IMG/VR virus record: IMGVR_UViG_3300030107_002018
Coordinates: 1-21,647 of that record
Strand: one strand, 5' to 3'
Origin: a virus
Length of the DNA stretch: 21,647 nucleotides
Part shown: positions 215 to 21,359 of the stretch, piece after piece
Position numbering within the stretch: position 1 is the first letter of the stretch
Layout of the letters: each line of letters starts with the position of its first letter
Notes under the pieces: model-generated
Database searches by the model: none
Told to the model about the DNA's origin: nothing
The model's input: the letters and a program-made list of their open reading frames with translations, nothing else
Program-made: the position numbers and the translations under genes

Positions 215-340
215 TTATCCCTCATCTGCCTTTACAAACTTACCGTTAGTATCTCTTTTCTTAGTAGATTTTTTCTTCTTTGCTTTAGCTTGTTCAGCTT
301 CTGCTTTTTCTTTAGCAAGTCGTATGCTTAATGTACTCAT
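215..340 (-). CDS. 41-residue lysine/alanine-rich hypothetical protein
   Basis: A small, strongly basic protein: residues 9-30 are an AKEKAEAEQAKAKKKK-type charged helix, and the tail is TNGKFVKADEG. Its ATG overlaps the TGA of the preceding exported-protein gene (ATGA) and its stop lies five bases before the next chosen start, so it belongs to the translationally coupled cassette. There is no signal peptide, membrane span or recognisable domain. The composition would suit nucleic acid or acidic-protein binding, but this is only a guess. Confidence 0.6.
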   Translation of the reverse strand: MSTLSIRLAKEKAEAEQAKAKKKKSTKKRDTNGKFVKADEG

Positions 341-1122
341 TTAGATTTAGTGGTAGTTGGACATTGATACTCCTGTTTTTGCCAAGGGAATTTAAAACCC
401 TTAACTGGAGTGCATTCGTTTTGTAGATACTGTTTAACAGCAACCTTTTTATTCTTTTTGTATTCAACTATTGGTACTACGTCATGACACATGTCATATA
501 CACGAGTACCTTCAGCCAGCATGAATCCCTTTTGTTGGAGTTCAGCACATTTCAGTACACGTACAAGCTCATAATCAAGCCTCATCTTTTCTTCTTGCCG
601 TTTGGCTATACGTCTACATTGTGCTAAACCTTTACGGTCTAAGGGAAACATAAAGTTAATCTGACCTCCCCAGTTCTCAGCTACTGTATAGCTTCTCTGA
701 GACATCTCCTCATCAAATGGGACTGTATGATTACCCATGTAGAATGGACTGAATGTCATCGTACTGCCATTACAGCTTACCCCAGAGCCATAGTGCTGCC
801 TTGAAGGTGCTCCATTGTTCTGGAATTGCACAGCTTGATTTGTGACATTCCCAGTCGCTGCAGCAACAGGATTAGATACGTTTTGAGTCTCTGGTTCTGA
901 TGCTTTAGATGGTGCTATTGAGAGAAGACTGATAAGGAAACAGTAGTAGATTCCTGTGAGATAGTTCGGTCTACCTCTATCAGTTCTATTATCTGACTGG
1001 CTGCTCTGGTTACTACTTCTAATGAGAAGTCTGAACCGGGAGTGGTCAAAGTAAAGATTGAATCTTCGTCTACTATTCCTCCAGAGCTTGCCGAGGTATG
1101 AGTTATATTGTCCCCAGACCAT
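337..1122 (-). CDS. Exported cysteine-containing protein, true start uncertain
   Basis: The convincing part is roughly residues 57-261. It has a hydrophobic stretch (YYCFLISLLSIAPSKAS) that looks like a signal peptide with a cleavage site near SKA, then GNVTNQAVQFQNNG, a conserved-looking glycine/serine region, a charged helix (CRRIAKRQEEKMRLDYEL) and several further cysteines, consistent with periplasmic disulfides. The only ATG, GTG or TTG upstream of the signal is the ATG at 1122. That start adds about 56 arginine/serine-rich residues, all encoded over the preceding gene in another frame, with only a distant GGAG. I think the real start is non-canonical, close to the stop of the upstream gene near 915-955. 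I recall similar proteins in other cyanophages but know no function. The stop overlaps the next ATG. Confidence 0.6.
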   Translation of the reverse strand: MVWGQYNSYLGKLWRNSRRRFNLYFDHSRFRLLIRSSNQSSQSDNRTDRGRPNYLTGIYYCFLISLLSIAPSKASEPETQNVSNPVAAATGNVTNQAVQFQNNGAPSRQHYGSGVSCNGSTMTFSPFYMGNHTVPFDEEMSQRSYTVAENWGGQINFMFPLDRKGLAQCRRIAKRQEEKMRLDYELVRVLKCAELQQKGFMLAEGTRVYDMCHDVVPIVEYKKNKKVAVKQYLQNECTPVKGFKFPWQKQEYQCPTTTKSK

Positions 1123-1286
1123 TTACTTAATGCTGCTCCATAGGTGGTGGTGGTTATTGTTTCTTCTATATCAACCGTTGTAGTGGTTGTAGAGTTCATT
1201 GACCCTTGGGTGAAATTGGGTTGTACTAACTCTGCTCTAACTGCTGTTGGTGATGCCAGCATTAAGAGTAATAGCCATTTCTTCAT
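915..1286 (-). CDS. Exported threonine/serine-rich hypothetical protein
   Basis: A 123-residue protein with a textbook signal peptide (MKKWLLLLMLASPTAVRA, cleavage expected before E19). The mature part is rich in Thr and Ser (STTTTTVDIEETITTTTYG) and has alternating polar/hydrophobic residues, suggesting beta structure. It ends in a repeat of the same style (ISQESTTVSLSVFSQ). The ATG overlaps the TGA of the upstream two-span membrane gene (ATGA), so translation is probably coupled. There is no lipobox cysteine, so it is not an obvious outer-membrane spanin. Its 3' part is shared with the following exported gene in a different frame. The position in the lysis/packaging region allows a cell-envelope or virion-surface role, but none is proven. 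Confidence 0.75.
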   Translation of the reverse strand: MKKWLLLLMLASPTAVRAELVQPNFTQGSMNSTTTTTVDIEETITTTTYGAALSKWSGDNITHTSASSGGIVDEDSIFTLTTPGSDFSLEVVTRAASQIIELIEVDRTISQESTTVSLSVFSQ

Positions 1287-1573
1287 TGTTTGGGTTTTTC
1301 GTTCTTCTTATTGTTATTACCATTACCAGTAGTCAAGCCAAATGTTGCAAGTGCTCCAGTAAAAATACTAGCAGGAAAAGTTATATCCCCACCGGGACTC
1401 TTCTTGATCATAGGTATTTCTACATAGTTTAAGGTAATGATGAATCCTGACCAAACTACAACACCTAGCCTAACGAATGTTCCTAAGATTTGTATTTGGT
1501 GTTCTTGATCTTCTGCAGCATCTTTTAATTTACTGAAGAATCCTTTTTCTTTTTCTGTTTTTGCTGCTTCCAT
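1283..1573 (-). CDS. Two-span membrane protein, holin-like
   Basis: A 96-residue protein. Residues 1-28 are charged and cytoplasmic-looking (MEAAKTEKEKGFFSKLKDAA). Residues 30-50 are a hydrophobic helix (LGVVVWSGFIITLNYV), a short loop carries IPMIKKSPGGD, residues 66-83 are a second span (FPASIFTGALATFGLTTG), and the tail is short and basic, rich in Asn and Lys. Small size, two spans and a charged C-terminal tail fit a class II holin topology. The location between fibre and packaging genes fits lysis too. It overlaps the end of the proline-rich gene upstream by 49 bases and the start of the exported 123-residue protein by four. It could instead be a minor virion membrane-interacting protein. 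Confidence 0.7.
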   Translation of the reverse strand: MEAAKTEKEKGFFSKLKDAAEDQEHQIQILGTFVRLGVVVWSGFIITLNYVEIPMIKKSPGGDITFPASIFTGALATFGLTTGNGNNNKKNEKPKQ

Positions 1574-1923
1574 TTATCTACTTTTTTCTGTAGGAATTTC
1601 TGTACTTGTTTCTTGATTTTATCAAAGAAAGGTGTAGCAAGGGTGGTTGTGGCTACAGCTGCTACAGCTGCATAGGTTGCAGTAGCTACGACTTCTGCAG
1701 TTGGTAAAGGTAAGTCAATATCAATAACAGGTAGTTTTACTTTAGGTTGCTCTGTTTGTACTTCGTCCTTTTCTTTCTTTTCTACGCCTTTAGGAGCTAC
1801 CAAATTACTAGGAGGTATGACAATGGGTGGGAAGACTGGCATATCTGCTGTAGGCGGTTCTAGAGGGATGCTAGGCATGTCTAGAGCTTTTGGTAGTTGA
1901 GGTTTGATGGATGGGATTTTCAC
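1525..1923 (-). CDS. Proline-rich, membrane-anchored protein with basic C-terminus
   Basis: A 132-residue protein in three zones. Residues 1-75 are proline-rich with many IP, LP and PP pairs and a charged insert (KKEKDEVQTEQ). Residues 76-98 are an Ala/Thr-rich hydrophobic segment (EVVATATYAAVAAVATTTL) that could span a membrane. The tail is a lysine-rich amphipathic helix (KKQVQKFLQKKVDKWKQQ). The start is a GTG three bases after the stop of the beta-propeller gene; there is no clear Shine-Dalgarno sequence, so coupling is likely. An extended proline rod joined to a membrane anchor could bridge envelope layers or a virion surface and a membrane. I recall related proteins in cyanophages, without known function. 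Confidence 0.7.
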   Translation of the reverse strand: MKIPSIKPQLPKALDMPSIPLEPPTADMPVFPPIVIPPSNLVAPKGVEKKEKDEVQTEQPKVKLPVIDIDLPLPTAEVVATATYAAVAAVATTTLATPFFDKIKKQVQKFLQKKVDKWKQQKQKKKKDSSVN

Positions 1924-20851: not shown

Positions 20852-20997
20852 TTTTTATCAGGTATATCACTAGTTGGAATCTCTTCCTCAATAGTTAATG
20901 GGTCCATCATGTGTAGAGGTATTCCTGATTTAGAAAATTCAGGTTCGGGAGTCAGTGAAGTAACTGACGCCCTAGCCTTATCACTTTGATGAGCCAT
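20848..20997 (-). CDS. 49-residue acidic hypothetical protein
   Basis: The ATG overlaps the TAA of the beta-barrel gene by one base (TAATG). The product begins MAHQSDKARASVTSLTPEPE, continues with FSKSGIPLHMMDPL, and ends with an acidic segment (TIEEEIPTSDIPDKK). It has no membrane span, signal or known domain and looks largely disordered. The junctions on both sides (TAATG and GTGA) argue that it is translated. Function unknown. Confidence 0.55.
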   Translation of the reverse strand: MAHQSDKARASVTSLTPEPEFSKSGIPLHMMDPLTIEEEIPTSDIPDKK

Positions 20998-21359
20998 TAG
21001 AACTTAAACTTAGCTCCAGCTTTAACGTTATAAACATTATCGAAGTCGCCAGCTGTAATGCCAGAGAACTCACCATAGAAAGCTAACTTATCAGTTGCGT
21101 TATAGTTAAGCCCAGCCTTACCAGAGATTTCAGTCTCAGTACCATCAACACCTTCAGCAGCAATGATAGTTGGACCACCTTGTATGTAGTAGGAAGTTTT
21201 ACCTTCTCCACCTTCAGCACCAATGTGGAAGTCTATAGCTCTACCAAAGTATTCTTTACCTTCATAACCTTGGTTCAATTCTGTGTTGAAATATACTCCA
21301 GCGGATGCAGGTGCAGACGCTAATGTGGTGGCTGCGAGAGCAAGTGCAATTGTTTTCAT
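20997..21359 (-). CDS. Exported small outer-membrane beta-barrel-like protein
   Basis: A 120-residue protein with a clear signal peptide (MKTIALALAATTLASAPASA, cleavage after residue 20). The mature part has alternating strands (VYFNTELNQGYEG, AIDFHIGAEGG, SYYIQGGPTIIA, ISGKAGLNYNA, AFYGEFSGITAG) and ends in VYNVKAGAKFKF with a terminal phenylalanine, the classic C-terminal signal for outer-membrane beta-barrel insertion. About six to eight short strands would make a very small barrel. I recall related proteins in other cyanophages with no assigned role. It lies between psbA and the capsid gene, so it is probably expressed late. Changing the host surface or permeability is a reasonable guess. 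No Shine-Dalgarno sequence is visible; its ATG follows the previous stop by two bases. Confidence 0.75.
   Translation of the reverse strand: MKTIALALAATTLASAPASAGVYFNTELNQGYEGKEYFGRAIDFHIGAEGGEGKTSYYIQGGPTIIAAEGVDGTETEISGKAGLNYNATDKLAFYGEFSGITAGDFDNVYNVKAGAKFKF

Follow-up and report, generated by a model that had tools for sequence, protein, structure and literature searches.

Long same-strand overlaps formed when a downstream gene replaces its start codon with one farther upstream have been modelled (PMC2542354, PMC3887535), and the spanin genes of phages occur embedded, overlapped or separated (PMC6139136). When analyzing a 21,647-base virus record, the whole of which is called the window here, we examined two overlapping genes for exported proteins, U and D. 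By its proteins and its closest relatives, the record belongs with the T7-like marine cyanophages (Autographiviridae). By sequence, U belongs to PHROG 650/DUF6322 and D to PHROG 1755/848, families without a recorded function that include gp165 of some cyanophages. We found no account of the U-D pair in the open literature searched on P-SSP7 gp44/gp45, DUF6450, DUF6322, cyanophage spanins and overlapping genes, or virion proteomics.

Layout of the locus

On the minus strand, past the tail genes, the order is a small gene, the gene of a DUF6450 protein, U, the D frame and more small open reading frames (Table 1). U and D share 208 nt and D is read in the −1 frame relative to U; ahead of the hydrophobic stretch the D frame has only one ATG, GTG or TTG codon, ATG 1122. 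A preliminary description of this DNA had already noted two heavily overlapping exported proteins, signal-peptide codons lying over the end of the upstream gene, and a single canonical start ahead of that signal peptide, and our analysis bears out all of these points. The AxA-type site of D (APSKA/SE, the slash marking the site) sits just beyond the U stop. Positions with a minus sign are counted from the end of the U stop codon, so that ATG 1122 is −208.

Table 1. Features of the U-D locus in the window.
Feature	Position	Strand	Description
Small protein gene	1525..1923	−	GTG start; precedes the DUF6450 gene
Small membrane protein (DUF6450, PF20048)	1283..1573	−	4-nt overlap with U start (ATGA)
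U	915..1286	−	Exported, 123 aa; signal peptide MKKWLLLLMLASPTAVRA; C-terminus STTVSLSVFSQ; DUF6322 (PF19847)/phrog_650 family
D	337..1122	−	Exported, 261 aa/codons; −1 frame relative to U; predicted start ATG 1122-1120
D start codon ATG (predicted)	1120..1122	−	Position −208; built from U codons Lys AAA and Trp TGG; in-frame stop TAA (1125-1123) directly before
D codons 1-57	952..1122	−	Basic, Arg/Ser/Asn-rich pre-signal extension, entirely within U
D signal peptide hydrophobic core	916..951	−	IYYCFLISLLSI, codons 58-69; −1 frame reading of U's last codons
Mature D, predicted	337..900	−	Begins SEPETQN; four invariant Cys; modelled as a beta-hairpin, then a 36-residue helix

The DUF6450 gene also overlaps the gene preceding it, by 49 nt (1525..1573), which makes three successive overlapping junctions. 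Another exported cyanophage protein is encoded in the same window at 20997..21359 on the minus strand; it has 120 aa, ends in FKF and resembles a small outer-membrane beta-barrel.

The start of D in the window's virus

Six IMG/VR scans and 14 annotated records gave 388 distinct homologous loci, 372 of them usable, which we sorted by their best-matching U into the groups T (window), R2 (S-RIP2), P7 (P-SSP7), S19 (Syn19) and H38 (S-H38). D-like sequences are present in 454 phage records, from podoviruses and from Kyanoviridae myoviruses, and a single-sequence search found U homologues in 52. D lies in the −1 frame of U at all loci except two (P-SCSP1d and P-SCSP2), and the codons of the conserved Ser/Thr-rich U tail (...SVFSQ, ...SVFTQ or ...SIFTQ) double as the hydrophobic core of D. 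The overlap is not a chance arrangement, since all untruncated homologues that we examined, from five cyanophage lineages, retain it.

A stop in the −1 frame arises from a synonymous choice in U, a T-ending codon ahead of AAN, AGN or GAN. We compared the D-frame stops seen with those expected under a null model of each lineage's own codon usage only. In the window's subclade (65 loci), 82 stops were seen against 76.6 expected from U's second codon to −211 (counted over −361..−211). From ATG −208 on, none was seen against 222 expected (0 against 181 in −205..−60 and 0 against 41 in −59..−4), counts that come from related and hence not independent loci, with 11 parsimony changes of stop state upstream of −208. 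A first pass over 128 T loci, with within-gene shuffles as the reference, likewise gave 0 stops against about 310 in −208..−60. The boundary is sharp: at six T-clade loci, the window included, a stop stands at −211, in the codon adjoining ATG −208, and none is seen in the T clade at −199 and −196, the informative positions that follow (26.7 and 49.1 expected). In the control +1 frame, stops are near or above expectation across −364..−60, so composition is not the cause of their lack in the D frame. The sister subclade (56 loci, NATL1A-7-like) has a D frame open to −364, with 0 stops against 55 expected in −361..−211. That two sister subclades differ in this way under an identical null is the best guard against problems of kinship and of the null model.

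In the window's subclade D-frame stops are neutral before ATG −208 and absent from it onward, which places the start of D translation at ATG 1122. The codon at −208 is ATG in 108 of 130 loci and GTG in 16. Over all groups, 353 of the 372 loci have a canonical ATG or GTG at their lineage's own position, no untruncated locus is without a canonical in-frame start for D, and the pattern of an overlapping gene with its own canonical start, a stop-free frame from the start codon and neutral stop density before it, was found in five lineages. On these counts we consider it highly probable that U and D are a conserved same-strand overlapping pair of exported proteins, with D translated from an ordinary start inside U, here ATG 1122. 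The preliminary description had held that D has no credible start codon, a claim overturned by stop avoidance that begins exactly at ATG 1122; for the same reason, the option to retain among those it offered is the third, a true N-terminal extension.

Its other two options put the origin of D near the end of U, and both fail to explain stop avoidance 150 nt farther upstream. A programmed −1 ribosomal frameshift fusing U to D would suit the −1 frame of D at all but two loci and the overlap of the signal peptide with U's last codons. However, an X XXY YYZ heptamer at one position is common to at most 2 of the 372 loci, in keeping with the earlier remark that no classic slippery heptamer is present, and D of the MPP-C phages, which lies in the +1 frame, has an ATG of its own. 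A late shift would also leave −208..−60 unprotected from stops; in a frameshift pair, selection should not act on the downstream frame until the shift site is reached, and here the frame is stop-free from −205 on. We regard frameshifting as very improbable. Initiation at a rare AUA, AUC or AUU codon beside the U stop has candidates in ATA −4 and ATC −19, present in the window and some relatives, but neither codon is conserved, position −4 being GTA where U ends CAGTAA. A signal peptide begun there would lack a basic n-region, and such a start would leave both the stop avoidance back to −208 and the lineage-specific boundaries unexplained, and we give it hardly any credence.

It could also be argued that D in the window's virus begins at −364, 8 nt past the U ATG, as in the NATL1A-7-like sister clade with its stop-free upstream region; ATG −364 is present in 63 of the 65 window-subclade loci. 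In the window, however, the TAA directly before ATG 1122 excludes this start, barring stop read-through or re-initiation, and in its subclade stops ahead of −208 are as frequent as neutrality predicts, which makes a start at −364 extremely unlikely here.

With ATG 1122 as the start, D would be translated in the −1 frame of U from an ordinary codon 208 nt before the U end. Its leader would consist of 57 basic residues, a long n-region for a signal peptide, followed by the hydrophobic core that U's last codons encode in the −1 frame. A signal-peptidase site after this core puts the predicted beginning of mature D near position 900. We infer from the sequences both initiation at ATG 1122 and cleavage of the D signal peptide.

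Constraint on the leader was measured as change at U four-fold sites where T makes no stop, between independent sister pairs. In the window subclade the change was 0.264 in region A (−325..−211), 0.244 in region B (−208..−60), 0.065 in region C (signal peptide) and 0.254 in single-coded D; the corresponding values in the sister subclade were 0.398, 0.296, 0.169 and 0.377. U-synonymous change drops about fourfold over the D signal-peptide core, and the extension changes at near the rate of single-coded DNA. These rates indicate that the extension must be open while its residues are close to free, and that the signal peptide is strongly held. Exceptions within B are a few sites, such as the U codon with its third base at −124, which is GCT in 91 of 92 loci (Trp in D). 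The Arg/Ser-rich residues had earlier been taken for a frame shadow, and conservation of the residues encoded between 1122 and 955 had been proposed as a check. The extension indeed has almost no constraint at the amino-acid level, but its frame is kept stop-free in the homologues, so that "shadow" describes the residues and not the frame. The open D frame, its 5′ boundary in each lineage and the constraint on the signal-peptide part are established by the sequence statistics.

U-synonymous change was also very low at 1244-1282 (U codons 3-15, in the U signal peptide), at 0.079 and 0.074 in the two subclades against 0.25-0.38 elsewhere, even though, in the window subclade, these codons lie upstream of D. 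The initiation region, RNA structure or codon choice are candidate causes.

D starts among cyanophage lineages

The stop test gave a separate D boundary for each lineage, and all of these boundaries fall within U at a canonical codon in the D frame. Aligning homologues to locate their starts was a check that the preliminary description had suggested. In H38, ATG −64 is present in 60 of 60 loci, and stop counts are normal up to −70 and then 0 against about 104 expected. S19 has ATG at −178, −172 or −166 in 36 of 37 loci. P7 has ATG or GTG at −67 (40 loci), or at −112 where the codon at −67 is absent. In R2 the start is ATG −193 (66 of 75 loci), homologous with −208, as the Trp of U's xWSG motif shows; the Ser codon preceding this Trp is TCA, which creates the ATG, in 65 of 72 loci, compared with a 27% TCA usage among Ser codons. 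In the NATL1A-7-like subclade, ATGAAGAAATGG carries the U and D starts 8 nt apart, and the NATL1A-7 GenBank protein ADP00132 (gp165) is annotated from −364. In the MPP-C phages P-SCSP1d and P-SCSP2, D occupies the +1 frame of U and has ATG −56 and the signal peptide MTRSTLLALSLLCLSLVSNKARAEG. At their loci (L008 1805-2335 and L015 1745-2275), a small indel past the U stop shifts mature D into the +1 frame, and the same U codons encode the new D signal peptide in that frame.

The conservation of Trp codons in U accounts in part for the NTG codons at the D start sites. Shine-Dalgarno-like sequences at the D starts are uneven (68 of 72 loci in R2, where they are enriched, about half in T and about none in P7); this pattern is confounded by U Gly codons, and we excluded it as evidence for D starts.

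Some loci have lost the usual start, and these exceptions conform to the general pattern. In L065, L083, L084, L088, L232, L360 and L363 the frame is open to the twin ATG, and in L007, L375 and L382 stops have gathered and D begins at −112. The R2 start has become CTG in L375 and L382, where stops pile up and the open frame contracts to GTG −112; L327 and L365 have TTG alone at −193.

Since the D leader must be open but is nearly sequence-free, the start codon is free to wander between lineages. It would have moved among −364, −208/−193, about −172, −112, −67/−64 and, in the other frame, −56. A broader reading, which we hold to be possible but doubtful, is that the start moved stepwise over about 300 nt within U among living cyanophages, ending in the twin-ATG sister clade with nearly all of U dual-coded, that leader length (about 9 to more than 100 residues) may tune D export or dosage relative to U, and that U and D may build an assembly of a new family in the outer membrane.

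Most records examined annotate D too short and lose the signal peptide. D is annotated from its mature part, or from past the signal-peptide start, in NATL2A-133, P-SSP7, S-RIP1, S-RIP2, SS120-1, S-H38, DSL-LC02 and P-RSP2, and from the predicted start in Syn19, Sf-FS3, NATL1A-7, P-SCSP1d and P-SCSP2. In S-SSM7 (L012 1195-2346), D is a single 1152-nt gene annotated from far upstream, in a long overlap with an unannotated U frame beneath it.

Protein families, possible functions and related systems

U matched phrog_650 over its full length (residues 1-123, E 1.8e-29) in profile searches. The DUF6322 profile matched 37 of 43 U relatives (best 7.4e-43), with the window's U below threshold. D matched phrog_1755 (E 2e-52) and phrog_848 (E 3e-47, improving to 1.5e-51 once the extension was included). 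Bacterial genomes searched with a D profile yielded 17 matches, mostly single-cell and MAG contigs resembling phage DNA; the D homologues in MAGs and genomes labelled Flavobacteriaceae, Neomarinimicrobiota, Euryarchaeota and others (L470-L473, L479-L484) are probably mis-binned or contaminating cyanophage contigs.

Both proteins have signal peptides with conserved AxA-type sites and N-termini that look cleavable. Structure models of moderate confidence (pTM 0.37 and 0.43) have two strands of about 22 residues in U, and in D a beta-hairpin with a 36-residue helix after it. As the most likely role, held with low confidence, we suggest that U and D would cooperate late in infection, at the outer membrane, close to it or in the periplasm, the timing being deduced from their place after the tail genes. 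The mature proteins might form an oligomeric outer-membrane beta-barrel or channel, with U as a long-hairpin subunit and D contributing a TolC/OEP-like hairpin and helix. The modelled long U strands and the hairpin and helix of D fit this, as do weak U fold matches that include pore hairpins and phage tail proteins, and weak TolC/OEP family matches in 7 of 50 D members. None of these matches is significant (fold searches, best E 0.04 for U and 0.7 for D; OEP, best E 0.059), PDB sequence profile searches gave nothing significant either, and we think such a channel unlikely. A barrel or channel is compatible with a D start at a canonical codon inside U.

A two-component spanin pair disrupting the outer membrane, a likeness that the preliminary description had drawn from nested spanin genes, is suggested by overlapping exported genes that adjoin a small membrane protein. 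It fails on a defining feature, the o-spanin lipobox, which is absent from U (0 of 362), scattered in D (5 of 362) and, as had been noticed at the outset, missing from both window proteins. An i-spanin has an uncleaved N-terminal transmembrane segment and a periplasmic coiled coil; D does have a long helix, but the signal peptides of both proteins look cleavable and not like an i-spanin anchor. In cyanomyoviruses, moreover, the upstream neighbour is phrog_564, another family, and DUF6450 is absent. A DUF6450 gene beside U in podoviruses and phrog_564 in myoviruses mark the U-D pair as a unit and leave a lysis cassette unsupported. A spanin role is improbable.

The analysis fixes the predicted start point of D, a widespread and mostly mis-annotated exported cyanophage protein. 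The loci form a natural series of start-codon relocation within a neighbouring gene, with sister clades as controls, and they indicate that the codons of one gene can supply the secretion signal of another, whichever of the two alternative frames is read. Locating a start by the boundary of stop avoidance can also serve to correct the starts of other overlapping phage genes.

Like U and D, the Rz/Rz1 two-component spanins are exported proteins of genes overlapping in different frames (PMC6139136). U and D differ from them in having no lipoprotein partner or evident i-spanin topology, in belonging to different families, and in being widely conserved where spanins are extremely diverse. The start-replacement models (PMC2542354, PMC3887535) are similar in that the downstream gene acquires a start within the upstream gene and in that the possible start sites depend on the neighbour's amino acids and codons, the Trp codons of U giving NTG. 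In contrast to those models, the start is followed here in a single gene pair from one lineage to the next, across about 300 nt; in one clade the ATG of D is offset by 8 nt from that of U and the overlap is nearly complete, and in one case the reading frame has changed.
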